Source: Chloroflexota bacterium (GTDB taxonomy: Bacteria; Chloroflexota; UBA6077; FW602-bin22; JAMCVK01). Taken from it: a stretch of 64,000 nucleotides of DNA. Position numbers and translations under genes: made by a program. Positions 41,599-62,012 of the stretch are shown here, piece by piece. Each line of letters starts with the position of its first letter. The stretch's first letter is position 1. The stretch covers positions 1-64,000 of the forward strand of contig JAMCVK010000016.1 of the NCBI GenBank assembly GCA_023475225.1, in the 5' to 3' direction. The notes beneath the pieces are model-generated. The model had not been told where the DNA came from. It saw nothing but the letters and a program-made list of their open reading frames with translations, and ran no database searches.

Positions 41599-41879
41599 TT
41601 TTGGATTGACATTTCAATTTTATCGTAGAGAGGCTATTTTTGCAAGATAAGCGGGCTCTGGGGGATTTTCCATTGAAAAGTATGACCTCTATCCGTGCTT
41701 GAATATAGCCTCTTTCATACTGTAAGTCCGCCGAAGGAGGAATGACCCCCAAATCCGCCTTCGGCGGATTCAAGGTAGCCCTTCGGGGCCTTTGTTAAAT
41801 AGGGGGGCACCCCCTGTGACCCCCGCTCCGCCTTCGGCGGACACTCCCCATTATGAAAGTTCCTGCTTGTCCAAAGGAC
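41599..41879. repeat. Noncoding region with repeated GGCGGA-type hairpins
   Basis: No gene is visible. AATCCGCC-TTC-GGCGGATT (41752-41770) and TCCGCC-TTC-GGCGGA (41827-41841) are two hairpins built from the same core, and a related GTCCGCCGAAGGAGG is at 41726-41740. GCCC-TTCG-GGGC followed by CTTTGTT (41778-41796) could terminate weakly. The region separates the tRNA from the catabolic cluster promoter. Confidence 0.5.
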
Positions 41880-41908
41880 TTGACAAATCTGCGCTCCAAT
41901 GCTATTAT
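41880..41908 (+). promoter_or_regulatory. Strong promoter of the catabolic cluster
   Basis: Perfect -35 TTGACA (41880-41885), a 17-base spacer and TATTAT (41903-41908), with TGC making an extended -10. It is the best promoter in the window, with the start site expected near 41915 inside the adjoining palindrome. Confidence 0.8.
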
Positions 41909-41949
41909 TAATTTAGTAAATCGTTTGCCTAAAACGATTTACTAAATTA
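41909..41949 (+). promoter_or_regulatory. Large palindromic operator overlapping the transcription start
   Basis: TAATTTAGTAAATCGTTT and its exact 18-base complement flank GCCTA. It abuts the -10 element and covers the expected start site, the classic position for a repressor. The LacI-type regulator encoded 0.9 kb downstream is the obvious candidate. At 41 bp it is longer than one LacI dimer site, so two dimers or a tetramer may bind. As RNA it would also form a long hairpin. Confidence 0.75.
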
Positions 41950-42094
41950 AGAGGGGTGAGCTGCTCACCGCGAAACGATACCTTCTCGTATAACAGAATC
42001 TTGCCAGGGGAGAGCACCAGTCATTACTTCTGGCGAACGCAAGGCCATCCCAAGGTCGATGGGGTAAGAACCGCTACGGTGAGGGGAGTGACCT

Positions 42095-42844
42095 ATGATC
42101 TTGCAGGATAAGGTAGCCATCGTTACTGGTGGAGCACGGGGTATCGGCCGAGCAATCAGCCTGGCCATGGCCAAGGAGGGAGCACGGGTAGTCGTCAACT
42201 ACGTCTCTAACTCTGAGGCGGCCACAAGGGTAGTAGAAGAGATCCACCAAGAGGGTGGAGAAGCGATAAGCATCCAGGCCGACGTCTCTGACAGTTTGGC
42301 TGTGCAGCGTATGGTTGAAACTACCCTGAGTAGATTTGGACGAATCGATATCCTCGTCAATAACGCCGGTATAGCTACTGGCTCTTTCGTTGTGGACATG
42401 CCAGAAGAAGATTGGGATAAGGTTATAGATACTAATCTGAAAGGGGTCTTCCTCTGCTGTAAAGCTGTGCTACCCACGATGATCCAACAGCGACAGGGCA
42501 AGATCATCAACATCGCTTCCCTCGTCGCCCATACGGGCTCTTATCAGCACGCCCACTATGCCGCCTCCAAAGCCGCTGTGATCGCCTTCACTATGTCCCT
42601 AGCCAAGGAAGTAGGGCCATACAATATTAACGTCAATGCTATAGGACCGGGCCGCATCGCCACCGCGATGGAAGCGGAGAGACAGGCACGTGAAAGGGCG
42701 CGCTGGATCAGCGAAACTCCCTTAGGTCGGTTAGGGCGACCTGAGGAGATCGCCTCCGTAGCCGTCTTTCTGGCCTCAGAAGCAGCCTCCTTTATCACCG
42801 GCGAGACGATCAATGCTACCGGTGGCATATGGATGGGCACATAA
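42095..42844 (+). CDS. Short-chain dehydrogenase/reductase (FabG-like)
   Basis: NAD(P)-dependent oxidoreductase of the classical SDR family. The nucleotide motif VTGGARGIGRAISLAMAKEGARV is at about 10-32, NNAG near 88, the catalytic Ser in NIASLVAHTG, and YAASK (Tyr-x-x-x-Lys) near 154. The C-terminus GETINATGGIWMGT resembles FabG and glucose dehydrogenase-like members. In this cluster a sugar or polyol dehydrogenase is more likely than fatty acid synthesis. ATG 42095 follows GAGGGGAG. It is the first gene after the operator, with a leader of about 150 nt. Confidence 0.9.
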   Translation: MILQDKVAIVTGGARGIGRAISLAMAKEGARVVVNYVSNSEAATRVVEEIHQEGGEAISIQADVSDSLAVQRMVETTLSRFGRIDILVNNAGIATGSFVVDMPEEDWDKVIDTNLKGVFLCCKAVLPTMIQQRQGKIINIASLVAHTGSYQHAHYAASKAAVIAFTMSLAKEVGPYNINVNAIGPGRIATAMEAERQARERARWISETPLGRLGRPEEIASVAVFLASEAASFITGETINATGGIWMGT

Positions 42845-42853
42845 GGAGAAACG

Positions 42854-43885
42854 ATGGCCACCATCAAGGATGTAGCCGCCCTCGCTAGGGTATCCCCAAC
42901 CACCGTATCCCGCCTGCTGAATAATAAGATAATTACAAGAGAGGAAACTAAGAAGCGCATTGAAGAAGCTGTCAAACAACTTGATTATAGACCAAACTTC
43001 TTAGCGCGCAGCTTAGTGACGAAGGAAACTCGTACCATCGGATTAGTTATCCCTGACATCATTAATCCTTACTTTCCAGCCATCGCGCGCGGTGTTGAGG
43101 ATGTGGCCAACCGCCGCGCTTGGAACGTCATCCTCTGTAATTCCGATAACCGGCCAGAAAAGGAGCTAACCTACATCAGGGTTCTGCAGCAAAAGCAGGT
43201 CGATGGCATCATCCTCGCCTCCACCGGGGTTAACAAGGAGCAGATCAACGCCTTCTTGGCGGAGGGACTTAATCTCGTCTTCGCTGGCCGCTACGTCGGA
43301 GAGGTTATGACCGATGCCGTGATCATCAACAACGCTGAGGGTGCTTATCAGGCTACCCGGCATTTGCTTACCCTGGGGCACAGACGCATCGCCTTCATCA
43401 CTGGACAGATGTCGATCCGAACCAGCCAGGAGAGAAGGCGCGGCTACGAGCACGCTTTGTCTGAGTATGGCTTAGCCGTGGATGAGGACTTGATCGAAGA
43501 TGGGAAGTACCAATATCAAGGCGGTTACCTGGCTATGAAGCGGCTATTGAAACGGAAACCATGGCCCACCGCCCTCTTTGCCGCTAATGATGTGATGGCC
43601 ATTGGGGCCATCAGGGCCGTAGAGGAGGTCGGAGCCGGTGTACCTGACGACGTGGCCATCGTTGGCTTCGATGACATCCTCCTAGCCTCCCTGATAACGC
43701 CCCCTCTCACCACTATGGCTGTCTCTGCCTATAAGATGGGCACTATCGCGGCCAAGATGCTTTTGGATAGGGCGACTGGGAAGAAGGCAAAACCGAAGAT
43801 AGTAACAATGGAACCTAAGCTCGTGATAAGAGCATCCTGCGGAGCCAATAAGTCAAGCCACATGGAGAAACGATGCATGCCTTGA
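42854..43885 (+). CDS. LacI family transcriptional regulator
   Basis: The N-terminal helix-turn-helix (ATIKDVAALARVSPTTVSRLLNNK) and hinge (NFLARSLVTKETRTIGLVIPDIINPYF) are standard LacI-family features. The periplasmic-binding-protein-like effector domain follows to about residue 330 (LTLGHRRIAFITGQM, AANDVMAIGAIRAVEEVG). ATG 42854 follows AAGGAG, 9 bases after the SDR stop. It probably represses its own operon through the 41909-41949 palindrome and is released by a sugar-like inducer. Its end overlaps the transketolase gene by 13 bases. Confidence 0.94.
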   Translation: MATIKDVAALARVSPTTVSRLLNNKIITREETKKRIEEAVKQLDYRPNFLARSLVTKETRTIGLVIPDIINPYFPAIARGVEDVANRRAWNVILCNSDNRPEKELTYIRVLQQKQVDGIILASTGVNKEQINAFLAEGLNLVFAGRYVGEVMTDAVIINNAEGAYQATRHLLTLGHRRIAFITGQMSIRTSQERRRGYEHALSEYGLAVDEDLIEDGKYQYQGGYLAMKRLLKRKPWPTALFAANDVMAIGAIRAVEEVGAGVPDDVAIVGFDDILLASLITPPLTTMAVSAYKMGTIAAKMLLDRATGKKAKPKIVTMEPKLVIRASCGANKSSHMEKRCMP

Positions 43886-44733
43886 GAGAGACAAAGACGA
43901 GAGACCAGCAATGCAAAACTATTCTTGAGCTCCAGCAGAAAGCACGGCTCATCCGGCGCACAGCCTTACAAATGATTGGGGCAGCCAGCTCCGGACATCC
44001 CGGCGGGTCACTCTCGTGCGCCGATATCCTGGCCTCCCTCTATTTTTGTCTGCTTAACGTTAGGCCAAGTGAGCCCAAATGGCCAGATCGTGACCGCTTT
44101 ATCCTCAGCAAAGGACACGCTGCCCCTGCCCTCTACGCCACCTTAGCTGAGGCAGGCTTTTTCCCCAAAGAGAAATTATCCACCTTTCGCCAGGTTGATG
44201 GCATGCTTCAAGGACATCCTGATATGAAGAAAACACCCGGCTTAGACATGACCACTGGTTCGCTGGGACACGGACTATCGGCTGGTGTCGGCATGGCCCT
44301 GGCCGGCAAAATCTTGAGGAGACGATACCACGTTTTCGTATTACTGGGCGATGGGGAAGTTCAAGAAGGGCAAGTCTGGGAGGCAGCTATGGCCGCTTCC
44401 CATCATAAATTGAATAATCTTATCGCCATTTTAGACCGCAATAAACTACAACTTGATGGAGCTACCGAAAGAATAATCGCCCTCGAACCATTGCCCCCAA
44501 AGTGGCGAGCTTTCGGTTGGCGGGTACGAGAGATCGATGGACACGATATCACCCAAATCATCACTGCCATAAAAGGGGCCAAGCGAGCCAAGGATCGACC
44601 AACAATCATTATCGCCCACACCGTAAAGGGAAAGGGCGTTTCTTATATGGAAAATAGGTACGAATGGCACGGCAAAGCACCTGGAGCAGAACTCCTGGCC
44701 CAAGCCCTCAAAGAGCTGGAGGAAAACGCCTGA
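43873..44733 (+). CDS. Transketolase-like, N-terminal (TPP-binding) subunit
   Basis: First half of a split transketolase, which moves a two-carbon ketol unit between sugars using thiamine diphosphate. ASSGHPGGSLSCADILASLYF near residue 40, SKGHAAPALYA, and MTTGSLGHGLSAGVGMALAGK are typical. The TPP/Mg motif is GDGEVQEGQVWEAAMAASHHKLNNLIAILDRN near 160-190. 286 residues. The second half is the next gene, one base after. Such two-gene transketolases occur in specialised sugar catabolic operons (for example the apiose and sulfoquinovose transketolase pathways), apart from the housekeeping enzyme. Confidence 0.93.
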   Translation: MHALRETKTRDQQCKTILELQQKARLIRRTALQMIGAASSGHPGGSLSCADILASLYFCLLNVRPSEPKWPDRDRFILSKGHAAPALYATLAEAGFFPKEKLSTFRQVDGMLQGHPDMKKTPGLDMTTGSLGHGLSAGVGMALAGKILRRRYHVFVLLGDGEVQEGQVWEAAMAASHHKLNNLIAILDRNKLQLDGATERIIALEPLPPKWRAFGWRVREIDGHDITQIITAIKGAKRAKDRPTIIIAHTVKGKGVSYMENRYEWHGKAPGAELLAQALKELEENA

Positions 44734-44734
44734 G

Positions 44735-45709
44735 ATGAGCGAGCTTAGATCAACCCGCGAGGCCTACGGCCGAGCCATCGTTGAGCTAGGTCGAAGGAAT
44801 CCTAAGATCGTAGTCTTAGACGCAGACCTATCGGAATCGACGCAAACAGTGCACTTCGCCAAGGAGTTCCCTCAACGGTTCTTCAATATGGGGTGTGCTG
44901 AGCAGAACCTGCTGGGGGTGGCCGCTGGGCTGTCCACCTGCGGTCTTGTCCCCTTCGTCAGCACCTTCACCGTCTTCGCCAGCATGAAAGCTTGCGAACA
45001 GGTGCGTACCTCCATCTGCTATCCTAACCTAAACGTCAAAATTGTAGCCACACACGCTGGCCTCGATGTGGGCGAAGCCGGACCGACACATCAGTCCATA
45101 GAGGATATCGCCATTATGCGCGCTTTCCCGAACATGACTGTTATCTCCCCTGCCGATGCGCGGGAAACGACTTATGCTGTGGAAGCCGCCCTGGAGCATA
45201 AGGGCCCAGTGTATATCCGTCTCGGGCGCTCAAACGTGCCCGATCTGCCTGATGAACATCACCACTTCGTCCTGGGCCAGGCCGTGCCACTGCGACCCGA
45301 CGGTGAGGTAACCCTAATTGCCACTGGTGTAACCGTCCACATGGCCTTGGAGGCGGCTGACCTTCTCTCCGCTCGCGGCATCCGGGCTGCTGTTCTCAAC
45401 GTTCACACCATTAAACCTATTGACACTCAAGCGATCCTGGCTGCCGCTCACTCTTCCCTGGCGTTGATCACAGTTGAGGATCACAACGTCATCGGTGGAC
45501 TGGGGAGCGCCGTGTTAGAGGCCCTAGGGGAAACTCCTAGCGTGCCAGTGAAACGTTTGGGCTTGCAGGATGTCTTCGGCGATTCGGGTAAGCCGTGCGA
45601 CCTCTTCGCCAAATACGGTATTGATGCTCTCAGTATAGCCCAGGCGGCGGAGACGATGCTTTATTGCCTCACCTCCATCAGGAGGACTACAGCCGACCGA
45701 AGGTCGTAA
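44735..45709 (+). CDS. Transketolase-like, C-terminal (pyrimidine-binding) subunit
   Basis: Second half of the split transketolase. It has the Pyr domain (TREAYGRAIVELGRRNPKIVVLDADLSESTQT, FFNMGCAEQNLLGVAAGLSTCG with the conserved activating Glu, VATHAGLDVGEAGPTHQSIEDIA) and the C-terminal transketolase domain (VLNVHTIKPIDTQAILAAA, TVEDHNVIGGLGSAV). 324 residues. It starts directly after the N-terminal subunit, so the two are surely made together. Confidence 0.93.
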   Translation: MSELRSTREAYGRAIVELGRRNPKIVVLDADLSESTQTVHFAKEFPQRFFNMGCAEQNLLGVAAGLSTCGLVPFVSTFTVFASMKACEQVRTSICYPNLNVKIVATHAGLDVGEAGPTHQSIEDIAIMRAFPNMTVISPADARETTYAVEAALEHKGPVYIRLGRSNVPDLPDEHHHFVLGQAVPLRPDGEVTLIATGVTVHMALEAADLLSARGIRAAVLNVHTIKPIDTQAILAAAHSSLALITVEDHNVIGGLGSAVLEALGETPSVPVKRLGLQDVFGDSGKPCDLFAKYGIDALSIAQAAETMLYCLTSIRRTTADRRS

Positions 45710-45733
45710 AGAATATTAACGAGGTGGAAATTT

Positions 45734-46768
45734 TTGAAGGCTTTGGTTAAAACACAGCACGGTCAAGGGTTCGTGACCCTGATGGATATAGATGAGCCCA
45801 TAGCAGGTCCTGGTGAAGTGAAGGTGCGCGTTGAGGCCGCCGGTATCTGCGGTTCCGATTTACATATATATCACGACCTCTTCCCCTCCTGGCCACCAGT
45901 GGTCATGGGGCATGAGTTTAGCGGTGTGATCGTGGACTTGGGAGCTGGCGTCTCCCGCTGGCAGATCGGCGATCGGGTTACCTGTGAGGCTGCTGTGCAG
46001 ACGTGTGGAACATGCGCATACTGCCGGATGGGTGCTCCAGCCCTTTGCCCTGAGCGACGTTCCTTAGGAAGTGGAGTCAACGGGGCCTTCGCTAGATATT
46101 GTCTGGTACCCCAAGAGAAAGTACACCGTTTGCCAGATAACATCGACTTTTTAAATGGGGCTATGGCCGAGCCACTATCCTGCTGCGTGCACGCCGTCCT
46201 GGAGCATGGACACGTCTCGGCCGCAGACGTGGTGCTGGTCACCGGCCCGGGCCCAATCGGGCTCCTGGTATCTCAGGTGGCCAGGGCTCAGGGAGCCAGG
46301 GTAATCCTGTGCGGCACAAGCGCTGACATCGAACGGCTGCGCCTCGGCGCGGCGCTCGGTCTAGACGCGACCATCGACGGGCAAAAACAAGATCCTCTGG
46401 CAACCGTCCTCGCTTACTCCGCCGGGCAAGGGGCTGATGCTGTTTTTGAGTGTGCTGGGGCAGCCGCCGCGGCCCAATTAGGTCTAGCGGCTGTTAAAAA
46501 AAGGGGGCGCTACGTACAAGTAGGGCTTTTCGCTAAAAATATAGAACTCGATTTCAATCAGATTACTACCAAGGAGCTGACGGTTGTCGGTTCTTTCGGC
46601 GCTACCTATGTTTCTTGGCAAAGAGCATTAGAGCTCCTGGCCCAGGGTAAGGTGGCTGTTCACCCCCTTATCACGACTGAACTACCCCTTTCTCAATGGG
46701 AAATCGGTTTCACCCAAATGCAACAGCGTCAGGGATGCAAAATCATCCTCAGGCCGGAAGACTCTTAA
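45734..46768 (+). CDS. Zinc-dependent medium-chain alcohol dehydrogenase (polyol/sugar type)
   Basis: NAD-dependent oxidation of an alcohol, probably a sugar or polyol. The catalytic zinc Cys is in [11 protein letters not shown] at about 36-46, and the His-Glu pair in MGHEFSGVI near 60. Four structural-zinc Cys lie in [19 protein letters not shown] near 93-110. The Rossmann motif is [20 protein letters not shown] near 170. Closest in style to sorbitol and threonine dehydrogenases. TTG 45734 follows GAGGTGG. Its stop overlaps the ATG at 46768 that could begin the next gene. Confidence 0.9.
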
Positions 46769-46785
46769 TGAGGGGAAGAGGGCAC

Positions 46786-48456
46786 ATGCTGAGAAGCAAA
46801 CACTGCCGAGGGTTAGCGGCTGCTGAGCGACGAGCTCTCTTATTCGGCAGCGGGTTAAGCGCAGACGAGCTCAAACGCCCCTTCGTGGCCGTAATCAACT
46901 CCTGGAATGAGGCTAACCCCGGGCATTTACATCTCCGTGAGGTTGCCCGTGCGGTCAAGGAAGGCATTCGCCAAGCAGGAGGGGTGCCCTTCGAAGTATA
47001 CACGATGGGGTTGTGTGATGGCCTCGCCCTGGCTAATCCCAAATATATCCTGCCCAGCCGAGACCTTATCACTGCTGAAGTAGAAGTGATCGTTGAGGCC
47101 AACCAGTTCGATGCTATGGTGCTACTCTCCACCTGCGACAAGATTGTGCCGGCCCATCTGATGGCCACAGCCAGAATAAATATCCCTGCCCTACTGGTGA
47201 CAGGGGGCTATATGGCCTTAGGAGAGCACCGCGGCATGCCCTGCACCTTCCTGGAGGTGGGCAAGGCTGTTGGTAAACGACAGAGCGGTGGGCTGACCCA
47301 AGAGGAATTGGACGATATTCTCAGGGTGGCTTGTGCCCCCGGCGGTGCTTGTGCCTTTATGGGCACAGCCAACACTATGGGTTGTGTCACCGAGGCTCTG
47401 GGCATGTCTTTACCAGGCAATGCTACTATGCCAGCCATCGGGCCACGTCTCCTGGATCTGGCGCGCCGCGCCGGAGAACAGATTATGACCCTCCTAGCGG
47501 AAGGAATTGCGCCACGAGAAATCATCACCCCAGAATCGATCGAAAATGCTATTAAGGTGAGCATGGCTATCGGCGGATCCACTAATTGTGTTGTTCACCT
47601 GCCAGCCATCGCCGTAGAGGCTGGCTTAGACATCGACTGTCTAGCCCTCTTTGATCGATGTAGCCGAGAGGTACCCTTGCTCTGCGGCATCGCCCCCAAT
47701 GGTCCGTATTACATGCCCAACCTGGATCAGGCAGGTGGCCTACAGGCTGTGATGAAGGAACTGGCTAGTGGGGACAAGCTGAACCCCAACGTCTTAACCG
47801 TATCTGGGGCATCTGCCGGACAGCATTGGGCTGCTGCTACCGTGCTGGATCGCGCCGTTATCCGCTCTCTCGACGCCCCTCTGCAAAAGGAGGGTGGCCT
47901 GGCCATACTCAGGGGAAATATCGCCCCTGAGGGAGCGATCGTGAAACAATCAGCCGTATGCCCCGAAATGTATGTCTTCTCCGGACCAGCTAAGGTTTAT
48001 TGGTCAGAAGGGGATGCTTCCACCGCGCTTCAAGCTGGTGCGATAAGGCCAGGGGATGTGGTGCTCATCTTGAATCAGGGTCCCAGGGGTGGCCCTGGGC
48101 TGGTAACCGTTTTCGCCTTTACAGGACAGCTCGTTGGTATGGGCTTAGGCCGCTCTGTAGCCCTAATCACTGATGGGCGTTTCTCTGGCGCCACTGAGGG
48201 GGCCTGCATCGGGCATGTCTCACCTGAAGCAGCCGTAGGTGGACCCATCGCCGCCGTTCGGGATGGGGACATCATCTCCATCGATATACCAGCCCGCCAG
48301 CTCAATGTGGCTCTTGATGACGCTGAGATCGAGGCTCGTTTGGCGACCCTTACCCCTCAACCCGGAACAGTTGTGCCTGGAAGTTATCTCTCTATTTACG
48401 CCCAAATGGTGCAATCCCTGGGGAAAGGTGCTGTGCTGGGCAAGCGCTACTTTTAA
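46786..48456 (+). CDS. IlvD/Edd family dehydratase
   Basis: Fe-S dehydratase that converts 2,3-dihydroxy acids, including aldonic sugar acids, to 2-keto-3-deoxy acids. Seen are [15 protein letters not shown] (the PGHxHL form also found in E. coli IlvD), CDK at 117-119, C189 in [15 protein letters not shown], and the C-terminal [29 protein letters not shown] 46786 ([10 protein letters not shown]) gives 556 residues, the family size. ATG 46768, overlapping the previous stop, is possible. Beside two dehydrogenases and a transketolase, a sugar-acid dehydratase is more likely than branched-chain amino acid synthesis; no ilvB/C genes are near. Confidence 0.85.
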
Positions 48457-48585
48457 AGATAGGTCAATGGTATGAGATTCATATTTAAATACGGTCATTG
48501 CTTGGGGGAGATCGGCTGTCAGCATGGTAATTGGCCGACATCAGGGCGTGATTGCGGTCGTAGTGCGGCCTTGAGGAGACGATAA

Positions 48586-49689
48586 ATGGAGCTGCTCACC
48601 CTTAGCGGTTCACCCTACGAGCGCGGCTATACTTACGGATCGCATTTTGCGACCATAACCGCAGAATTGGTGGAGAAGAACAGGCTCAGCTTACAGAACC
48701 TGGTAGAGAAGAAGGGGCTTACCCCTCTTTCCGATGAGCGGTTTGCTAATCTGGTACGTAAGGGTTTGCCTTACGCTATGGGATACGCCTCAGATTTAGT
48801 CGAGGAGGTAAGGGGTATAGCCTCAGGAGCAGGGCTAGAATTTGAGCAAGTGTTTGGCCTAAACTATTTCCTTGATCTCTTTGATCTCACCTACCCTCAA
48901 TCGTCTACCGAGTTGCTCTTCGGCTGCACCACCTTCGCTGCGGCCCATTCGGCAACAGCTGATAATGGGGTTTACCTAGGACAGAACTACGATCTGCGCG
49001 GACTATTCCAAAAAGGTATCCTCCTTATCAGGCTAAATACAGCACCAAACCTCACCACTATGCTTTTCACCATCGCTGGCCTCGTTGGCTGCGCGGGGAT
49101 GAATTCGGCTGGATTAGGCATCGTAATCAACAATCTGACACCCTCCGATAGCCATCCCGGTGTGCCATACACTTTCGTACTGCGCAAAGCCCTGGAACAG
49201 AGGACCATGGCCGACGCCATAAACGTCATTATATCCAGCCGGCGCGCCTCAGGCATCAATTACCTCTTGGCCGATGCCAATGGGGAGATCTTAAGCCTGG
49301 AAACGACGGCTACCAAAGCCGAGATAATCTACGCCTTGGAGGAATACGTGGGGCATACCAACCACTATGTTCATCCACGCCTTTTGCCCTATGATGCCCC
49401 CAGCCGACCCTATAACGGTGATAGCTACGTGCGCTGGAGCAGAATCAACAAGCTGTTACGACAACGCCGCGGCCATATCACCCTGCAGGATCTAATGAGC
49501 TTCGCTAAAGACCATGTTGGTTATCCTCAGTCAATCTGTCGCCACCCACTGCCAGGACTATCCGAGCTTCAGACAGGGAATACGATCTCCTCCATGATTA
49601 TGGATTTGCGCCGGCTGTCGCTGTGGATCACTACAGGCAATCCTTGTCAAAATGCTTACGAAAGGCATAACTTAGAACCAGTAACGTAA
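48586..49689 (+). CDS. C45 family autoproteolytic acyltransferase/hydrolase, copy 1
   Basis: N-terminal-nucleophile hydrolase of the acyl-CoA:6-aminopenicillanate acyltransferase family (C45). Members self-cleave before a Cys and then cut or transfer amide-linked acyl groups. Cys114 in LLFGCTTF is the expected nucleophile after the Gly113-Cys114 cut. YLGQNYDLRG, GLVGCAGMNSAGLGIVINNL and SRRASGINYLLADANGEILSLETT are the matching core motifs. There is no signal peptide, so it acts in the cytoplasm. A clear paralogue is at 59226. Reaction and substrate are unknown; amide cleavage of an imported compound is inferred from the neighbours. Confidence 0.8.
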   Translation: MELLTLSGSPYERGYTYGSHFATITAELVEKNRLSLQNLVEKKGLTPLSDERFANLVRKGLPYAMGYASDLVEEVRGIASGAGLEFEQVFGLNYFLDLFDLTYPQSSTELLFGCTTFAAAHSATADNGVYLGQNYDLRGLFQKGILLIRLNTAPNLTTMLFTIAGLVGCAGMNSAGLGIVINNLTPSDSHPGVPYTFVLRKALEQRTMADAINVIISSRRASGINYLLADANGEILSLETTATKAEIIYALEEYVGHTNHYVHPRLLPYDAPSRPYNGDSYVRWSRINKLLRQRRGHITLQDLMSFAKDHVGYPQSICRHPLPGLSELQTGNTISSMIMDLRRLSLWITTGNPCQNAYERHNLEPVT

Positions 49690-49723
49690 CGCCTTTACCA
49701 AAGAAAGATGGGACACAAGACGG

Positions 49724-51388
49724 ATGAAAAGGCAAGTATCATCAACGGATGTATTGATCATCGGTGGGGGTACAGCTGCTCTACGAGCAGCGCTAGCGGC
49801 TGCCGAGAGCAACGTTAGGGTTACTATACTGACGAAGGGCCCGGCCAGCTTGGGTATAGTCGGCCTAAACGCTTGTCTCGCTGAGTCCGGCGATAGCCCA
49901 GCTGACTTCTTCAGTGATACCGTATTAAGTGGCGAATTTATCAATAATCCACGCCTGGTGGCCATCCTTGCCACCGAATCCACTCAGCAAGTCCAGTTCT
50001 TAGAAGAGATCGGTGTACCCTTGAAGAAGGCCAACGGCACCTATGCCCCTCGCCTGACAGCAGGCAACAATCGTCCGCGAACCCTCTATTATACTGATCA
50101 AACGGGACCAAGGATCGTTGATTGCTTGCAACAGCAGCTGCAAGAACACGGGGTGACGATACACTCTGGAACGACTGTTGTATCCCTACTAATGGGCGAT
50201 GGCCAAGTCAAAGGCGCCTTAGCCATCAACCCTCAGGAGCAAACCATCCATGCTTTTTCGGCGAAGGCGACGATCCTGGCAACAGGAGGCATAGGCGGCA
50301 TCTATGCCTTTAGCACTAATCCCCCTAGGCTTAGCGGTGATGGATACGCTTTGGCCTATAGTGCGGGGGCGGAATTGATCGATATGGAGTTTGTCCAATT
50401 CGAGCCTTTCGTCATCATCACCCCAGCGGAGTGTCGTGGATTTAGCGTCTCCTTCCTCTTTTCAGAGGGTGCCGCCGTTTACAACGGACAACGAGAGGAC
50501 TTCCTCCCTAATTATAGGGACAGATGTAAAGGCATTGGCAAGGATGTACTAGCCAGGTCTGTCTATACCCAAATACAAGAGGGCAGGGCGACACCAAACG
50601 GGGGCGTATTCTTTGATCTCACCAACAGTTCCCTAGAAAAACACCCTCGCTTCCTGGCCATTTGCCGGGCAGGAGGCCTGGATCCAAAGACCATACCCCT
50701 CGAGGTCGCTCCCGCTCAACATTATATGATGGGAGGCATACGTATCAACGAGTACACTATGACCTCTATTCCCGGCCTCTTCACCGCGGGTGAGGTGGCA
50801 GGAGGCATACATGGAGCAAACCGACTAGCGGGCAATTCCGGCACGGACGTATTAGTCTTCGGTCACCGTGCCGGCCACTACGCGGCTGCATATGCCTTAA
50901 GGACAGCCGAGCCAAAACTCAGCCCAGAGGAGTTGGACAAACACTGGAACCAGATCGTGCGGTCGATATCTCCCCAAGAGGAGCGCACCTGGCCTATTGG
51001 GTCGATCTTATCTAGGCTCAGGCAAATTATGTGGACTAAAGTTGGCTTGGTTAGAGAACGAGGAGGATTAGAGCAAGCGATACAAGAGATCAAAACTTTG
51101 GCCGCAAAATGCGCTAGCCTTCAGCCCACCAATTTGGGGGAATGGTTATCCCTCTTTGAGGGCAAAAATGCCCTCCTGGTAGGAGAAATGATCGCCAAAG
51201 CCGCCCTGCTTCGCCAGGAGAGCCGTGGGGCCCACTATCGTCATGACTATCCTCAACGAGACGACCTATCATGGTTGAGAAATATTGCCATCTCAAGAGG
51301 AGACGCTGGCATGACTATAACCTATTTACTACCATCCCTGGAGCGACAAGGCTGGCCAAAATCTTCACCGCCTTTATCTAGGGGGTAG
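49724..51388 (+). CDS. FAD-dependent oxidoreductase, fumarate reductase/aspartate oxidase type
   Basis: Flavoprotein subunit-like enzyme. The FAD-binding GGGTAALRAALAAAESNVRV motif begins near residue 14. LATGGIGGIYAFSTNPPRLSGDGYALAYSAGAELIDMEFVQFEP and HYMMGGIRINEYTMTSIPGLFTAGEVAGG, then HGANRLAGNSGTDVLVFGHRAG, are typical of the succinate dehydrogenase/fumarate reductase/NadB group. 554 residues. No iron-sulfur or membrane-anchor subunit is adjacent, and no nadA or nadC, so it is not part of those complexes here. It lies between the C45 hydrolase and the FdrA gene and may oxidise or reduce a pathway intermediate. Confidence 0.85.
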   Translation: MKRQVSSTDVLIIGGGTAALRAALAAAESNVRVTILTKGPASLGIVGLNACLAESGDSPADFFSDTVLSGEFINNPRLVAILATESTQQVQFLEEIGVPLKKANGTYAPRLTAGNNRPRTLYYTDQTGPRIVDCLQQQLQEHGVTIHSGTTVVSLLMGDGQVKGALAINPQEQTIHAFSAKATILATGGIGGIYAFSTNPPRLSGDGYALAYSAGAELIDMEFVQFEPFVIITPAECRGFSVSFLFSEGAAVYNGQREDFLPNYRDRCKGIGKDVLARSVYTQIQEGRATPNGGVFFDLTNSSLEKHPRFLAICRAGGLDPKTIPLEVAPAQHYMMGGIRINEYTMTSIPGLFTAGEVAGGIHGANRLAGNSGTDVLVFGHRAGHYAAAYALRTAEPKLSPEELDKHWNQIVRSISPQEERTWPIGSILSRLRQIMWTKVGLVRERGGLEQAIQEIKTLAAKCASLQPTNLGEWLSLFEGKNALLVGEMIAKAALLRQESRGAHYRHDYPQRDDLSWLRNIAISRGDAGMTITYLLPSLERQGWPKSSPPLSRG

Positions 51389-51398
51389 ATGGAAGGCG

Positions 51399-52958
51399 AT
51401 GATCATTAAATCCCTTATTCGTCGAAATGAATATCGTGACTCCGTGATCTTGATGAACGCCTCTAAGAGGATCCGTGCCATCGAGGGGATCGCCGAGGCT
51501 TTAGTAGTTATAGGTACTGATACCAATAAGGACATGTTAAAGGAGCTCGGCCTCCTCACCCCAGAAGCAAAAGCGGCCACGGCCAATGACATGATCGTGG
51601 CCATGCGGGTAACCGCTGAAGACATCGCCCGGGAGATCCTGAACAACATCGACGAATACCTCGTTCGAAGGGATATCGAACAAGAGGTTGAATCGTATCA
51701 CTCTCTCGATGCGGCCTTCCAAGCGCTGCCCGAGGCCAATTTGGCCATCATCTCAGTACCGGGTGAGTTCGCTGCCGCCGAGGCCCGCAAGGCCCTGCGT
51801 CGTGGTTTGCACGTACTTATCTTCAGTGATAACGTGCCCCTGGAGGATGAGGTGGCCACAAAGCAGCTGGCCAAGGAGAAAGGTCTCCTGGTTATGGGGC
51901 CTGATTGCGGCGTCGCTAACATCAACGGTGTAGCCTTAGCCTTGGCCAGCATCGTCGGCCCTGGTCCTATCGGGATCGTCGGTGCTTCAGGCAGTGGTAT
52001 CCAAGAAGTGGCCGCCTTGATCGAGCGCGCCGGACTAGGAATCTCCCAAGCCATCGGCAGCGGTGGCCGTGATCTCCATGAAGTGGTTGGCGGAGCGACG
52101 ATGCTTCAAGGGCTAGAGGCCCTGGACGAGGATGAGGAGACCAGAGTCATCGTCTTGATCGCCAAGCCACCGGCTCCATCGGTGGCTCAGCTGATCTTGG
52201 ATCGAGTCCGACACTGCCGAAAGCCAGTGGTAGTGAATTTCTTGGGTGGCGCAATGGAGCCGATCATAGCCGCCGGGGCCTATCCAGCAGCCACCTTGGA
52301 CGATGCCGCCTTCGTTGCCGTCAATCTAATCGAGGGCAGCGTCCCCCAAAAGCGATGCTTCTCATTGCCGGAGACGGAGATCACCAAAATCATCACCGAG
52401 GAGGCATACAAGTTCAAGGCAAACCAGAAGTATCTCCGTGGACTGTTTGGCGGCGGCACATTCTGCCTGCAAGCGCAGCTCATCCTGAAAGATATCATCG
52501 GCCCTATCTATTCCAACGCACCTCTATACCCCCACCTACGCCTTAAGAATTCTCAGGAGAGCCAGGGGCACAGCCTGATCGATCTTGGTGACGAAGAATT
52601 TACGCGCGGACGACCCCATCCTGTGCTCGACCCTACCCCCTACCGCATACGCCTGGCCAGAGAGGCACAAGATCCAGAAGTGGCCGTCCTGTTACTTGAT
52701 GTCATCCTGGGACCGGCCGTCCATCCCGACCCAGCCGGGTTTCTGGCCAGTTGTCTCACCGAAGCAAGGGATGACGCTCGTCAGGAAGGGAGACATCTAA
52801 CGGTAGTGGCCTCAGTGTGTGGCACAAAACGTGATCCCCAGAATCTGGAAATCCAGGAGGAGAAGCTGCGTGAGGCAGGGGTTATCGTGACGCCCAGTAG
52901 CGCACAAGCAGCACATTTGGCCGGACTGATCATCAGAGCCGCCCAGAGAGATGGCTAA
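51399..52958 (+). CDS. FdrA-family acyl-CoA synthetase-like protein (AllF-like)
   Basis: FdrA proteins resemble both subunits of NDP-forming acyl-CoA synthetases. In E. coli FdrA (AllF) works with YlbE and YlbF as oxamate carbamoyltransferase. Seen are KSLIRRNEYRDSVILM at the N-terminus, a CoA-ligase-like Rossmann block (VMGPDCGVANINGVALA, GPIGIVGASGSGIQEVAALIERAGLGISQAIGSGGRDL) and VLLLDVILGPAVHPDPAG near 430. The product is 519 residues. A small FdrA-associated ORF overlaps its end and a DUF1116 gene follows, so the module is conserved, but the acyl or carbamoyl substrate here is unknown. Confidence 0.85.
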   Translation: MIIKSLIRRNEYRDSVILMNASKRIRAIEGIAEALVVIGTDTNKDMLKELGLLTPEAKAATANDMIVAMRVTAEDIAREILNNIDEYLVRRDIEQEVESYHSLDAAFQALPEANLAIISVPGEFAAAEARKALRRGLHVLIFSDNVPLEDEVATKQLAKEKGLLVMGPDCGVANINGVALALASIVGPGPIGIVGASGSGIQEVAALIERAGLGISQAIGSGGRDLHEVVGGATMLQGLEALDEDEETRVIVLIAKPPAPSVAQLILDRVRHCRKPVVVNFLGGAMEPIIAAGAYPAATLDDAAFVAVNLIEGSVPQKRCFSLPETEITKIITEEAYKFKANQKYLRGLFGGGTFCLQAQLILKDIIGPIYSNAPLYPHLRLKNSQESQGHSLIDLGDEEFTRGRPHPVLDPTPYRIRLAREAQDPEVAVLLLDVILGPAVHPDPAGFLASCLTEARDDARQEGRHLTVVASVCGTKRDPQNLEIQEEKLREAGVIVTPSSAQAAHLAGLIIRAAQRDG

Positions 52959-53193
52959 GGGGGAAGCTAGAATGTCCAATGAGATCAAAAAGCTATGCAA
53001 GGCCAGGGTCAAGGTGATCAACATTGGGGTGAGAACACTGGCCGCTTCCCTAAAGCAACAGGGGGTAGAGACGGCTCACGTTGACTGGCACCCACCAGCC
53101 GGAGGTGACCTCAGGATAGCCAAGCTATTAGAGAAGCTACACCAAGATTCATCTAGGCCCTATCCCAATGAACATACGGAAAAGGGAAGATAA
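52951..53193 (+). CDS. Small FdrA-associated domain protein
   Basis: An 80-residue protein overlapping the end of the fdrA-like gene by 8 bases. The core KARVKVINIGVRTLAASLKQQGVETAHVDWHPPAGGD is the short domain often annotated as fdrA domain, with an invariant-looking DWxPPAxGD. In related systems this segment is fused to a larger FdrA or DUF1116 protein; here it stands alone. A later ATG at 52972 (MSNEIKKLC), preceded by GGGGGAAGC, is an alternative start. It probably is a structural part of the FdrA-DUF1116 complex. Confidence 0.75.
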   Translation: MAKGEARMSNEIKKLCKARVKVINIGVRTLAASLKQQGVETAHVDWHPPAGGDLRIAKLLEKLHQDSSRPYPNEHTEKGR

Positions 53194-54462
53194 ATGGAAA
53201 AGGACATCCACCAAAGGATCCAAGAAGCGAACAAGAGGGCCTTCGATATTTTTGTCCAGGGCCAACCAGTATGGGTTGGGGTGAAACCAGCGATCGAAGC
53301 TATTCCGGGCATGAAGAAAAACCTACTCTTACACACTGGACCACCCATTGAGATCGATAGGATGGTACCAGCCCAACGGGATGGGGTCATTGGCGGCATC
53401 CTCTTTGAGGGCCTAGCCAAAACAAGGCAGGAGGCCCTGGAGATGGTGCGGCGGGGTGAGATAGAATTAGCGCCGGGGCTAGATTACGGGGTACCGGGAG
53501 GTGGGATGGCTCCTACTACTGCCTCCATGCCTATTCAAGTAGCCAGGGATTTGGCCCACGGGACAGAGTCTTATACCACCATCCAAGAGGGGCCTTCTTC
53601 TGAAGCCCTGCGCTGGGGCATTTACAATGAGGTGGTGGAAGAGCGCTGGGCCTGGTTCAAGGGAGTGCTAGGACCAGCTCTGGACACTGCCCTTAGAGAA
53701 ACGGGTGGGGTCAATCTGAGAAATGTCATCGCGCGCTCTTTACACATGGGCGATGAGAACCACAGTCGCGAGCTCGGCTCAACCCTTCTCATCTTCGCTG
53801 AACTCACACCTCATCTGGCTCAACTAGATCTTGAAAAAGCAGAGCTAGTCCGTTGTCTGGATTTCTTGATCAAGGCCGAACGCTTCGCTCTGCACGTCCT
53901 GATGGCCGGCTGTAATGCTGTACTTCAGGCTGCCAAGGGGATCGACTACTGTACGGTAGTCACAGGGATGGGTGGCAACGGGATTGAGGTCGGCATCAAA
54001 GTGAGCAGCCTCGGAGAAGAATGGTTCACCGCGCCAGCCCCGCTGATCCAAGGGAACTATCTCAACCCCAGTTGGACGATCGAAGACACCGTCCCCTTCT
54101 CCGGCGACAGCTGCGTGGTAGAGGCGATGGGACTCGGCGGTCTAGCGGCAGCGGCCTCGCCAGCAGTAACCCTCCTCACTGGCAGCACGGTGCAGGAAGC
54201 CATCAGCCGAACGCGACTGATGAGGGAGATAACCATAGGAATGAACCCCAATTACCAGATACCAATCCTTAACTTCGAGGGGACACCGACATGCATTGAT
54301 ATCATTAAGGTCCTGGAAAAGGGTATCGAGCCTCAAAGCCACGCTGGTATCATCCACAAGCGAGGTGGGCAGGCCGGGGCTGGCGTAGCCAGCATACCAA
54401 TGGAGTGCTTCAGGAAAGCCTTCCTCAGCTTCGCCCAAAAATACGCGCTGGAGGAGCTATGA
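53194..54462 (+). CDS. DUF1116 family protein (YlbE/AllG-like)
   Basis: YlbE (AllG) homologue of 422 residues, partner of FdrA in E. coli oxamate carbamoyltransferase. Typical stretches are FVQGQPVWVGVKPAIEAIPGM at about 17-37, LHTGPPIEIDRMVPAQRDGVIGGILFEG, GGGMAPTTASMPIQVARDLAHG, HMGDENHSRELGSTLL and TGMGGNGIEVGIK. The ATG directly follows the stop of the small gene, and the stop overlaps the kinase ATG (ATGA), so fdrA, the small gene, DUF1116 and the kinase are translationally linked. The third E. coli partner, YlbF (DUF2877), is not present in the window. Confidence 0.88.
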   Translation: MEKDIHQRIQEANKRAFDIFVQGQPVWVGVKPAIEAIPGMKKNLLLHTGPPIEIDRMVPAQRDGVIGGILFEGLAKTRQEALEMVRRGEIELAPGLDYGVPGGGMAPTTASMPIQVARDLAHGTESYTTIQEGPSSEALRWGIYNEVVEERWAWFKGVLGPALDTALRETGGVNLRNVIARSLHMGDENHSRELGSTLLIFAELTPHLAQLDLEKAELVRCLDFLIKAERFALHVLMAGCNAVLQAAKGIDYCTVVTGMGGNGIEVGIKVSSLGEEWFTAPAPLIQGNYLNPSWTIEDTVPFSGDSCVVEAMGLGGLAAAASPAVTLLTGSTVQEAISRTRLMREITIGMNPNYQIPILNFEGTPTCIDIIKVLEKGIEPQSHAGIIHKRGGQAGAGVASIPMECFRKAFLSFAQKYALEEL

Positions 54463-55673
54463 AGATACTGGTAGCCAACGTGGGAAGCACATCATTCAAG
54501 TATCAATTGATCGAGATGGAGGGGGAGCAAACCCTGGCCATAGGCAAGGTTGAGCGCATTGGCAGCGCCAAGGCCCCCTTAAGCCATCAGGTTGCTGGGA
54601 TGCCCGCTGTAATCCAGGAGATAGATGCCCCTGACCATACGGCAGCCATCAAGCAGGTCCTGGCTTTACTCTGTGATCCCAGAGCAGGTTGTATTGCTGA
54701 CCTCAGCCAGCTCAGCGCTGTTGGATTCAAAGCCGTTCACGCCGGCTGTCTCAGCGGCGCCGTCCTGGTTACTGATGAGGTCATCACTGCTATGGAGGAG
54801 TATAACGACGTGGCTCCAGCCCACAACCCGCCATACATTGCCGCCATGTGCATCTTCCAAAGTCTTATCCCCCAGACGCCTTTAGTAGCCCTTTTCGAAA
54901 CGGCCTTTCATACCTCGATGCCTGCGCACGCTTATACCTATGGACTCCCCTACGAGTGGTATGAGAAGTATGGCGTACGTCGTTACGGCTTCCATGGCGC
55001 TTCCTTCCGCTATATATGCGAAAGGGTGCCCCAAATTCTGGGGGTACCCAAAGAAGGACTACGCCTCATCGCCTGTCATTTAGGGGGTAGCTCCTCGATC
55101 TGCGCTATACAGGATGGCCGATCGATCGATACTAGTATGGGCTTCTCGCCTCAGGCCGGGGTCTCTATGTCAACGCGCTGTGGTGACATCGACCCCTTCG
55201 TTATTCCATATATCATGGAGAGGAAAGGACTAACCACAAGGGAGATCCGCGAGTGTCTCATCAAGCGAGGGGGGCTTTTGGGCATATCAGGGCTTAGCGG
55301 CGACGTAAGAGACCTGGAGGAAGCAGCCAGGAGTGGCGACCAACGCGCCGCGCTAGCCCTCGACGTTTTTGTCTATGAGATCAAGAAATACATTGGGGCT
55401 TATGCGGCGGCCCTGAGCGGTGTGGATGCTCTGGCCTTCGCTGGGGGCATCGGCGAGAACAGTGTTGAGGTGCGTCGCAGAGTCTGTAGTGGACTGGAAT
55501 TTCTGGGGATACGACTTGACCCCCAGAAGAACAATTGTCGTCGGGTCGAGGCCATCATTTCCAGAGATGGGGCCAGAGTGAAGGTATTGGTGGTTCCCAC
55601 CAATGAGGAGATCATCGTAGCCAGAGAGACCGCCCGCCTGGTAGGTATCCTGCAGGAGCCAAGGAGGAAGTGA
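54459..55673 (+). CDS. Acetate/butyrate-kinase-like acyl-phosphate kinase
   Basis: ASKHA-fold acetokinase family enzyme making ATP from an acyl phosphate. Seen are ILVANVGSTSFKYQLIEM at residues 2-19, ALFETAFHTSMPAHAYTYGLPYEWYEKYGVRRYGFHG near 145-180, HLGGSSSICAIQDGRSIDTSMGFSP, and FAGGIGENS near 340. ATG 54459 (MKILVANVGS) is chosen, giving 404 residues; it overlaps the DUF1116 stop. In E. coli the equivalent place by AllFGH is filled by a carbamate kinase of a different fold, so this kinase may harvest the acyl phosphate made by the FdrA-DUF1116 complex. Confidence 0.85.
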   Translation: MKILVANVGSTSFKYQLIEMEGEQTLAIGKVERIGSAKAPLSHQVAGMPAVIQEIDAPDHTAAIKQVLALLCDPRAGCIADLSQLSAVGFKAVHAGCLSGAVLVTDEVITAMEEYNDVAPAHNPPYIAAMCIFQSLIPQTPLVALFETAFHTSMPAHAYTYGLPYEWYEKYGVRRYGFHGASFRYICERVPQILGVPKEGLRLIACHLGGSSSICAIQDGRSIDTSMGFSPQAGVSMSTRCGDIDPFVIPYIMERKGLTTREIRECLIKRGGLLGISGLSGDVRDLEEAARSGDQRAALALDVFVYEIKKYIGAYAAALSGVDALAFAGGIGENSVEVRRRVCSGLEFLGIRLDPQKNNCRRVEAIISRDGARVKVLVVPTNEEIIVARETARLVGILQEPRRK

Positions 55674-55749
55674 CATATGTATGATGTATAAACCATTAAT
55701 TATCATCGTTGAAAGTGGATTGCTGTTTAACACTAAGGAGGAATAGAAG

Positions 55750-57144
55750 ATGAGCGAGATCAATCGACTGATGGATCAACTGACCCAGAGGAGAATAAGT
55801 CGCCGGGAGTTCATTATTCGGACTACAGCTTTAGGTCTCTCTGCCTCAAGCATAGCTGCCCTTCTCTCTGCCTGTGCTCCCGCGGCGCCAGCGACGCCGA
55901 CACCTACCAAACCAGCCGTACTAACCCCTGTAGCCGTAGCTACGCCCGTACCCACGCCTCCCCCCAAAGAGGTGAAGCTGACCTTTTGGACCTGGCAGAA
56001 GCACGACGAGGAGCTAGCCAAGGGCTTCATGGCCAAGAACCCCAACATCAAGATTGAAACCACCGTGGGTGGGCCGTGGGATCTACAGGATAAGCTTGTA
56101 GCCGCCCTAGCGGCGGGCATGGGAGCACCGGATATTTCCCGAGTAGTGATGCGGATGTTCTACAAATTCTCCGGCCCGGGCAGGGGCATGCTGGATATCA
56201 CTGATCGCGCTGCCCCATTCAAGAAAGACATCCCAGAACACCTGTTGAGTCTCATGACCGTTGGAGACCGTATCTACGGACTTCCTTCGGAGAATAACCT
56301 CTGCGGGCTATTCTACCGCAAGGATATCTTCGATAAATACGGGTTCAAAGCGCCAGAGACCTGGGATGAGTTCATCCAAATCGGTAAGACGCTGCGCGAG
56401 AAAGAGAATATAGCCATGCTTCCCCTTTGGATTCCGGGCGGCTTTTGGGGTTCTGATCACTACCGCATGTACCTGCAATCGCGCGGGGGCAATATCTTCG
56501 ACAAAGGTAACAAGATCATTGAGAACAACAAGCTGGCCAAGGAGACGTTGCGTTGGTACTATGACCTAAAGGCCAAACACAATATTGGCTGGCTCACTCA
56601 GCTCTTTAAGCCAGAGTTTTACGCCGGCATGAATGCCAACGCCTTCGTTACCTGGCCGATGAACTCCGGCGATATCGTCTCAATGAAGAGAAACTGTGCG
56701 GGACTCTCTGGAAAATGGGCTAGGACACCCTTCCCACTATGGGCGAAAGATGCCCCTAAGTACAACGCCGAGCTAGGTTCGTCGGGGGTAGCTATACCGG
56801 CTCAGACCAAGTACCCAGAGGAAGCTTGGAAATTTGTCCAGTTCTACGCCGTTTCCCTGGAAGGACAGACCCTACTCTGGGAAAAGGGGAATCAGATCCC
56901 CTCTTACAAGCCAGCCTTTGAGAGCAAGGAGGTCATAGACAAACCCGATCCCTACTTCGGTGGTGGCACCCTTCGTGATTTCCTTCGCGATCGTGCCACA
57001 CCTATCTTTAACTATCTGGGTTGGGCTGAGGTATCAGTGATACTGGGCGAGGAGATCGACTCCATGTGGGCCGGGAAGCAAGAGCCAGAACAAGCCTGGG
57101 ATAATGTGGAGAAACGGATCAAGGAAAAGGGCATTGGAAGATAG
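55750..57144 (+). CDS. ABC sugar-type solute-binding lipoprotein 1
   Basis: Family 1 (MalE/UgpB-like) extracellular binding protein of 464 residues. The N-terminus has a twin-arginine motif (SRREFI) and a lipobox LLSAC ending at about residue 41. It is followed by a Pro/Thr/Ala linker that in DNA is nearly identical to that of the second binding protein. The mature part shows ELTFWTWQKHDEELAK-type beginnings and the RKDIFDKYGFKAPETWDEFIQIGKTL block typical of sugar binders. ATG 55750 follows AAGGAGG. It is upstream of two permease genes and likely the most abundant product of its transcript. Confidence 0.9.
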   Translation: MSEINRLMDQLTQRRISRREFIIRTTALGLSASSIAALLSACAPAAPATPTPTKPAVLTPVAVATPVPTPPPKEVKLTFWTWQKHDEELAKGFMAKNPNIKIETTVGGPWDLQDKLVAALAAGMGAPDISRVVMRMFYKFSGPGRGMLDITDRAAPFKKDIPEHLLSLMTVGDRIYGLPSENNLCGLFYRKDIFDKYGFKAPETWDEFIQIGKTLREKENIAMLPLWIPGGFWGSDHYRMYLQSRGGNIFDKGNKIIENNKLAKETLRWYYDLKAKHNIGWLTQLFKPEFYAGMNANAFVTWPMNSGDIVSMKRNCAGLSGKWARTPFPLWAKDAPKYNAELGSSGVAIPAQTKYPEEAWKFVQFYAVSLEGQTLLWEKGNQIPSYKPAFESKEVIDKPDPYFGGGTLRDFLRDRATPIFNYLGWAEVSVILGEEIDSMWAGKQEPEQAWDNVEKRIKEKGIGR

Positions 57145-57190
57145 CCACTCTGCACTCTATCAGAGAGGCAATTAGCAGCAGTTGTGGTCA

Positions 57191-57233
57191 GATACCTGCT
57201 CTGCGGCGAGGTTTTGCTCCTAGAGCAGGTATC
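57191..57233 (+). promoter_or_regulatory. 12-bp-stem hairpin after binding protein 1
   Basis: GATACCTGCTCT and its exact complement flank a 19-base segment. It lies in the 215-base gap between the binding protein and its permeases, immediately before an even longer hairpin. Confidence 0.55.
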
Positions 57234-57237
57234 CGAA

Positions 57238-57280
57238 GGGTTCAGCGTATCTGCGCCATTGGCGCAGATACGCTGAACCC
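57238..57280 (+). promoter_or_regulatory. 20-bp perfect hairpin between binding protein 1 and permeases
   Basis: Two 20-base arms (57238-57257 and 57261-57280) are exact complements around ATT. There is no T-run, so it may act as a processing or 3'-protecting structure that keeps binding-protein mRNA more abundant than permease mRNA, as known for malE-malF type operons. Confidence 0.65.
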
Positions 57281-57359
57281 AGCCACAGCTTGTCGCTAGC
57301 CATCTGCCCGTGCTTTGCACGCAGAAAAGGCGGGGTAAGGTACTTTGTTGGAGCTCTAA

Positions 57360-58265
57360 ATGGCGAGCATAGCAACAGCACCAGCACAAAAGATAAGGTG
57401 GATAGTAAATGGACGGAAAGTGGCCCCTTACTTGTTCATTTCTCCGTTCTTTATCCTGTTCATAATCTTCTGGATAGGGCCCATCCTGTTCTCATTCTAC
57501 CTAGGCTTCACCAAATGGGAAGCCATAGGTACGCCAATATTTATAGGCTTAAGCAACTATCGACAACTGTTGTTTTCTGATCCAATCTTCCTCCTTTCGG
57601 TCAAGAATACCTTTTTCTTTGTCATCGTCTACAGCATCATTATGATGGGTATCGCTGTGCCTTTGGCCTTAATCCTGAATGAAGGTGCTGTGAAGTTCAG
57701 AGAGGCTTTCCGTACAGCCTACTTCATTCCCGTTACCGTCGCCCTAGCCGTCACCGCCCTCATCTTCAGCATGATTCTGAGTCGAGATTTCGGCCTTCTT
57801 AATCTTGTCTTACAGGCCCTGGGGTTCAATCTAAAACCGGATTGGTTGAATGATAGTAACCTAGCTATGTGGTCACTCATTGGCGCCAGGGTCTGGAGGG
57901 TTACCGGATACTACATGGTTTTCGTTCTGGCCGGGCTACAGGCGATCGATCGAGAGCTCTACGATGCGGCGGCTGTCGATGGGGCCAGCACGCTGCGACG
58001 CGTCTGGCACGTGACCCTTCCCTTGCTAAGACCTATGTTGCTGTTTGTCCTGGTGATGTCATCCCTCTGGTCCTTCCAAATATTCGAGGAGCCCTGGATT
58101 CTGACACGGGGTGGTCCAGCCAACGCGACCTTAACCTTGCCTATATACCTATACCAAAACGCCTTCCAGTTTTCGAGGTTCGGGTACGCCTCGGCCATCT
58201 CCTATCTGATGACATTAATGATGATTGTTATCGCTTATCTACAGGTGAAGATCCTAACCAGGTGA
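57360..58265 (+). CDS. ABC sugar transporter permease (MalF/UgpA-like) 1
   Basis: Inner-membrane permease of 301 residues with six predicted membrane segments, first at about 22-45 (LFISPFFILFIIFWIGPILFSFYL). The ATPase-contacting EAA loop reads YDAAAVDGASTLRRVWHVTLPLLRP near 200-225. ATG 57360 follows GGAG. It pairs with the next permease and binding protein 1. No ATPase gene is present in the window, so a shared MsmX-type ATPase encoded elsewhere is likely. Confidence 0.92.
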   Translation: MASIATAPAQKIRWIVNGRKVAPYLFISPFFILFIIFWIGPILFSFYLGFTKWEAIGTPIFIGLSNYRQLLFSDPIFLLSVKNTFFFVIVYSIIMMGIAVPLALILNEGAVKFREAFRTAYFIPVTVALAVTALIFSMILSRDFGLLNLVLQALGFNLKPDWLNDSNLAMWSLIGARVWRVTGYYMVFVLAGLQAIDRELYDAAAVDGASTLRRVWHVTLPLLRPMLLFVLVMSSLWSFQIFEEPWILTRGGPANATLTLPIYLYQNAFQFSRFGYASAISYLMTLMMIVIAYLQVKILTR

Positions 58266-58293
58266 GACTTGACCAGAGCTGAGGTCTTAGATT

Positions 58294-59133
58294 ATGTCTA
58301 GAACAAATACGAGCAATCCGCTTTTGAATACTTTGATTTACACCATTCTTATAATCTTTCTGCTTCTAACCATCGCCCCCTTCTATTGGACAGTCGTATC
58401 TTCGCTAAAAGAACCAGCGGAGCTCTTCTCACCACGGCCATCCCTGATTCCCCAAAAGCCAATCCTGGATAACTATTTTCACCTCCTCAAAACAACCGAG
58501 CTATCCAGATGGATGCTTAATAGCGGCGTAGTGGCTGCTGGCAGCACCCTCTTAGGCATCTTCTTCTCCTCTCTTGCTGGCTATGCCTTCTCCAAATATA
58601 GATTCGCTGGACGCGATTTCCTCTTCTGGGTCGTACTGAGCTCGGTGTCCATACCACAACTGGTAACTATCATCCCTATGTTCGCTCTCATGGCCCGAAT
58701 CGGCTGGTTGAATACATTCCAGGCCCTGATTATCCCCGGCGCAGCCAACGCCTTCGGCATCTTCTTGATGCGGCAATATATCGACTCGGTCCCCGATGAG
58801 CTGCTTGATGCCAGTCGGATCGATGGCTGTTCCGAATTCCAGATCTATTGGCAGGTAATACTCCCCGTGGTCAGGCCAGCCTTGGGGGCTCTGGCCATCT
58901 TCCTCTGGTTAACCTCCTGGAATTCGTATCTTTGGCCGTTGGTGATGTTACATACTTCTGATATGTATACGATGCCCCTCGGTCTGGCTACCTTATATGC
59001 AAATCCGTGGAATATAGAGTATGGGCCGCTGATGGCTGGCTCCATTTTGTCTATCCTTCCTATCATGATTATCTTTATCGCTATGCAGAAACAATTCATC
59101 GTTGGATTAACACAGGGAGCAGTCAAAGGTTAA
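58294..59133 (+). CDS. ABC sugar transporter permease (MalG/UgpE-like) 1
   Basis: Second permease, 279 residues and six membrane segments, beginning LLNTLIYTILIIFLLLTIAPFYWTVVSSLK. The EAA loop is LDASRIDGCSEFQIYWQVILPVVRPAL near 170-195. It lies 28 bases after permease 1 and completes the first importer. Confidence 0.92.
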   Translation: MSRTNTSNPLLNTLIYTILIIFLLLTIAPFYWTVVSSLKEPAELFSPRPSLIPQKPILDNYFHLLKTTELSRWMLNSGVVAAGSTLLGIFFSSLAGYAFSKYRFAGRDFLFWVVLSSVSIPQLVTIIPMFALMARIGWLNTFQALIIPGAANAFGIFLMRQYIDSVPDELLDASRIDGCSEFQIYWQVILPVVRPALGALAIFLWLTSWNSYLWPLVMLHTSDMYTMPLGLATLYANPWNIEYGPLMAGSILSILPIMIIFIAMQKQFIVGLTQGAVKG

Positions 59134-59225
59134 GAGATAGGCGCACTGAGATGATGGGACCAGGAATAGCCATCCTTAAGTGGATTTCCTGACCCAAGGT
59201 ATTAGGGAGGAAAAGATTTCGCCCT

Positions 59226-60338: not shown

Positions 60339-60472
60339 CGCCCCAAGAAAAAAGGACGGCAATCGCAAAGTGGATAGCCGATGGCCACCCTGCTAACCGC
60401 AAGCGTCAAGGGGCAACCTGCGGCAGAGGATGACCATCTCAGGCACGTTGATTCTTGGTTAGGAGGAAAGAG

Positions 60473-61840: not shown

Positions 61841-61887
61841 GGTAGGGGTACACACCTTTATTATCTTGGGGACGGAAGGGCATAAGG

Positions 61888-61929
61888 CGGCGGATACCTG
61901 CCGATCACATAGTTGACGGGTATCCGCCG
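61888..61929 (+). promoter_or_regulatory. 11-bp-stem hairpin between binding protein 2 and permeases
   Basis: CGGCGGATACC pairs with GGTATCCGCCG across 20 bases, in the 172-base gap before the second permease pair. Its place equals that of the hairpins at 57191-57280 in the first importer, suggesting the same post-transcriptional role. No T-run follows. Confidence 0.55.
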
Positions 61930-62012
61930 TCGGGATAACCCTGCGAGGGGGGTTCTGTGCGTTTTCAATATGGCCAACAGACATCGGTCTCTAGCTGCCG
62001 ATTGGAAGGAAA

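Follow-up and report, generated by a model that had tools for sequence, protein, structure and literature searches.

An A+T-rich inverted repeat at the head of a large catabolic gene cluster is very probably an operator through which a LacI-family protein from the same operon regulates its own expression. In the window (the whole stretch of 64,000 nucleotides that was analysed), this putative composite operator occupies 41908-41950 and reads TTAATTTAGTAAATCGTTT GCCTA AAACGATTTACTAAATTAA, an exact 43-bp inverted repeat with 19-bp arms and the 5-nt centre GCCTA. The original prediction had described a perfect palindrome at 41909-41949, with 18-bp arms around a 5-base centre and beginning just after TATTAT; the perfect repeat, its centre and its contact with the -10 element hold, but each side extends one base further and the last T of TATTAT (41908) is common to both elements.

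The -10 element belongs to a predicted sigma-70-type promoter on the forward strand (41880-41908; 11 of 12 bases in a consensus scan), in which TTGACA (41880-41885) and TATTAT (41903-41908) are separated by a 17-bp spacer and a TG lies one base ahead of the -10. If transcription starts near 41915, as expected from a distance of about 7 bases after the -10, the repeat spans approximately -7 to +36. Its first base is the final T of the -10, and it overlaps both the promoter and this predicted start site, as an operator would.

Within the repeat, each arm carries its own LacI-type core, as had been proposed. Specifically, site 1 (41914-41931, TAGTAAATC/GTTTGCCTA, CG centre 41922/41923; slashes mark site centres) contains a AANCGNTT core at 41919-41926, and site 2 (41927-41944, GCCTAAAAC/GATTTACTA, CG centre 41935/41936) contains a second one at 41932-41939. 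These cores, AATC/GTTT and AAAC/GATT, lie in inverted orientation with their CG centres exactly 13 bp apart, the arrangement of a 13-bp overlapping operator pair, and both show the even dyad, central CG, A/T-rich flanks and AANC/GNTT pattern of LacI-family operators. An AANC/GNTT pair at 13 bp appears in 0.03% of arm permutations. With a start near 41915, the dyad of site 1 would fall near +8 and that of site 2 near +21. Agreement between the inner half-sites (GGCAAAC, CTAAAAC) and the outer ones (GTAAATC) is only partial; a consistently better match of outer than of inner half-sites was considered and rejected (mean 2.9 versus 3.15 of 5 over 20 double sites).

The proposed ligand of these sites is encoded close by. 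The operon opens with an SDR-family oxidoreductase gene (42095-42844, forward strand, NCBIfam), and its second gene (42854-43885, forward strand) encodes a 343-aa LacI-family repressor with an HTH domain (Pfam PF00356), a sugar-binding domain (Peripla_BP_3, PF13377) and the hinge motif ARSL in its translation. The LacI-type protein that the original prediction placed in the operon is thus present, with all the domains expected of a cognate regulator; NCBIfam describes it as PurR/RbsR/CytR-like, with scores below the equivalog cut-offs. The link between the hinge motif and a central CG is established for PurR and LacI. The same 13-bp layout occurs at a paralog in this genome and at distant LacI genes, and no close ortholog for comparison was found in the genomes searched (best 44% identity). 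Predicting the operator from regulators that share the recognition residues (P, T, R) was dropped, as no other protein in the set has them.

Downstream genes at 43873-63823 (forward strand) are probably under the same control, with co-transcription of the 20-kb cluster suggested by gene order and families. They encode a split transketolase, a Zn-alcohol dehydrogenase, an IlvD/Edd-type dehydratase, C45 hydrolases, an FAD protein, FdrA, AllG, an acetate-kinase-type kinase and sugar-type ABC transporters, the ABC permease genes being named by eye from the sequence. At 51399-55673, FdrA, an 80-aa ORF, AllG (oxamate carbamoyltransferase subunit) and the acetate-kinase-family kinase stand in one row; together with the split transketolase, this is an unusual set for an allantoin/oxamate-type pathway. 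The cluster also encodes two autoproteolytic hydrolases of the C45 type (AAT family; 48586-49689 and 59226-60338), which suggests an amide or acylated substrate. A further perfect hairpin (57238-57280; 43 bp in all, with arms of 21 bp and a centre of 1 nt, and about -45 kcal/mol for a 65-nt stretch) separates a solute-binding-protein gene of this cluster from its first permease gene; it is unique in the genome and is perhaps a stabiliser or attenuator that sets the binding protein above the permease.

Two perfectly matching arms of 19 bp would not arise by chance. In 418 kb of genome stretches used as background, there are eight perfect hairpins with arms of at least 18 and a loop of at most 12, most of them G+C-rich; the long perfect hairpins of this genome often lie between or behind genes and some are members of the CCCCCTTCTCCC repeat family. 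Because such hairpins are fairly common here, length alone is not remarkable, and what distinguishes the 41908-41950 repeat is that it is A+T-rich, lies over the start site, contains LacI-type cores and is unique in sequence. The recurrence in many unrelated intergenic regions that was to count against an operator is not seen. A mobile or repeated element was rejected, as the only part of 41840-42100 with matches elsewhere is a stretch of about 30 bases at the upstream end; this stretch (CCTTCGGCGGA-type, 41840-41870) recurs at several other sites in the genome.

We compared the double core with other LacI-type sites in the same genome. An exact 13-bp double core occurs three times in the 2.74-Mb genome, compared with about 0.12 expected from composition, and two of the three are at lacI operon promoters; the third, on contig C3, is apparently in coding sequence, judged from the sequence. 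The second promoter belongs to a lacI paralog on contig C39, where TATAATGTAATC/GATTACAGTAATC/GGTTACATTATA repeats the 13-bp step directly behind the -10 and GTAATC/GATTACAGTAATC/GGTTAC forms a near-perfect outer dyad. At this paralog promoter (G000:C39:170-200, L143), the double-site dyad takes in the -10 TATAAT itself. Two other lacI paralogs each carry just one LacI-type site, immediately after the -10 (GTGAACGTTCAC on C36 and TGAAACGTTTCA on C38). As for further targets, TAGTAAATCGTTT without mismatch is found only in the two arms of the 41908-41950 repeat, and at up to two mismatches it has 28 genome matches versus 47 for a reversed-pattern control, no excess. The search for additional copies that the original prediction had recommended for defining a regulon thus yielded no good ones, and as the C3 double core seems to fall within coding sequence, the idea of a regulon extending past the operon was rejected.

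The spacing recurs beyond this genome. Related genomes contributed 79 regions upstream of lacI genes, picked by protein search regardless of operators; in five of these promoters two exact cores stand 12 or 13 bp apart, and none has a pair at 4-11 or 14-23 bp, with shuffled sequences giving approximately zero. Another set comprises 86 upstream regions, of which many came from a broader scan of genomes and some are shared with the first set; it contains nine pairs at 13 bp and two at 12 bp; with some loci related and the core pattern fixed, these counts indicate a preferred spacing and are not a census. In genome G060 (L238:100-135), three LacI-type cores follow each other in two 12-bp steps (AAATCGATTACGTAAACGATTGCGTAATCGATT), which makes 12 bp an alternative to the 13-bp step. 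The recurrence of the 13-bp spacing at lacI promoters of this and other genomes, and in the literature, supports the LacI-core reading.

These observations point to a simple mode of control. In the absence of inducer, repressor dimers on the composite site would obstruct RNA polymerase at this strong promoter, and a sugar-like ligand would free them from the operator. The anatomy of the locus gives good support to auto-repression by the LacI protein of the operon, possibly with double occupancy; binding, repression, the ligand and the simultaneous filling of both sites are what we infer from it. Our confidence in the operator covers that reading as a whole, and joint and alternative filling of the sites are sub-cases whose likelihoods are not additive. 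Simultaneous occupation of the two sites, 13 bp from each other and on different DNA faces, by two LacI-family dimers seems to us quite possible, though short of probable. Two dimers at this distance are hard to picture from published structures and, to our knowledge, have never been seen together structurally in this family. Idealised B-DNA arithmetic, which leaves out the bulk of the protein cores and is not a structural model, would set their dyads about 86 degrees apart and their inner HTH units about 31-36 Angstrom apart, a geometry that does not appear obviously forbidding. The overlap of the contact zones of two dimers in published structures fits better with cores used one at a time, as mutually exclusive sites that would raise the local chance of binding. 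This is conceivable but rather doubtful; such use predicts no fixed spacing, yet exact short-range pairs were found only at 12-13 bp. Because of this narrow spacing, we favour joint over merely alternative binding.

Two further explanations set the LacI cores aside. A different dimeric regulator could read the whole dyad centred on 41929, and it is true that the dyad is perfect over 43 bp, beyond the need of two LacI sites, and that a similar promoter-proximal palindrome without LacI cores precedes a recombinase-type gene elsewhere in the genome. That palindrome (4590-4623, within L152:4560-4640 on G000 C15) follows a strong TTGACA-17-TATAAT promoter, is A+T-rich, has 14-bp arms (TTTAGTTTCCAGAA-ATAAAA-TTCTGGAAACTAAA) and an XRE-type gene nearby on the opposite strand, and is itself likely another operator. 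However, the cluster genes examined include no other recognisable regulator, and the comparison set varies at the middle axis but keeps the CG centres (although the search pattern fixes the CGs), which makes this explanation unlikely. More improbable still is a mainly RNA role, in which a 5′-terminal hairpin stabilises the mRNA or shapes translation. As the original prediction anticipated, RNA starting near 41915 would begin with a hairpin (12 bp, 41915-41943, forward strand; -13.3 kcal/mol and z = -7 by fold computation), formed from the first transcribed bases, and long perfect hairpins are common in this genome. But the dyad straddles the -10 and is thus partly untranscribed, no Rfam family fits, and the LacI cores and their spacing would be left unexplained. 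No U-tract of an intrinsic terminator follows the hairpin on either strand, and a riboswitch or known structured RNA leader was rejected, with nothing but tRNA above the Rfam gathering score and weak miRNA-model matches that are hairpin artefacts. The single-site paralogs have just short symmetric sites at this position, so the hairpin is probably a by-product of the dyad; an additional effect on mRNA life is possible.

The preferred reading, a LacI operator, accounts for how this large catabolic cluster is probably kept repressed. The locus also adds to a documented operator class in which the structural basis of the 13-bp step has been unexplained since 2014; together with the C39 paralog and the relatives described above, it extends the 13-bp pattern to this genome and its relatives, with 12 bp occurring too. 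In addition, its perfectly symmetric 43-bp DNA offers a clean test object for structural work on joint binding.

Several known systems share features of this layout. At Bacillaceae lacI-type promoters (L076, L080, L092), TAAATCGATTTAGTAAACCGATTTAGTAAATCGGTTTA is arranged in 13-bp steps just behind the -10 and has TTTAGTAAATCG in common with the window, but these are three sites in a row in contrast to the single inverted pair, and the recognition helix is SKSTVSQYLN versus SPTTVSRLLN in the window's LacI protein. In E. coli, the gntKU upstream region, read directly, contains an inverted repeat in which GTTACC recurs at a distance of exactly 13 bp (GTTACCGATAACAGTTACCCGTAAC). It differs in its half-site (GTTACC), its much shorter perfect arms, its phylum, and its regulator, which responds to gluconate and is encoded by a separate neighbouring gene, gntR. 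These overlapping GntR operators are reported to be functional, as cited in Ravcheev et al. 2014 (PMC4052901). That survey reports that the distances separating LacI-family sites peak at 13, 22 and 32 bp, with 110 operons at about 13 bp, and often finds local LacI regulators to be auto-regulated. It places the overlap of 13-bp pairs in the contact zone, hard to reconcile with structures, and its only proposal is that the repressors bind in a special mode in which the DNA is partly unwound. Its pairs are predicted sites from other lineages, whereas the dyad in the window is perfect over 43 bp and belongs to a genome for which the sets searched contain no close relatives; nevertheless, both consist of even sites with a CG centre, spaced at the preferred 13 bp and located upstream of the operons they regulate or, here, would regulate.
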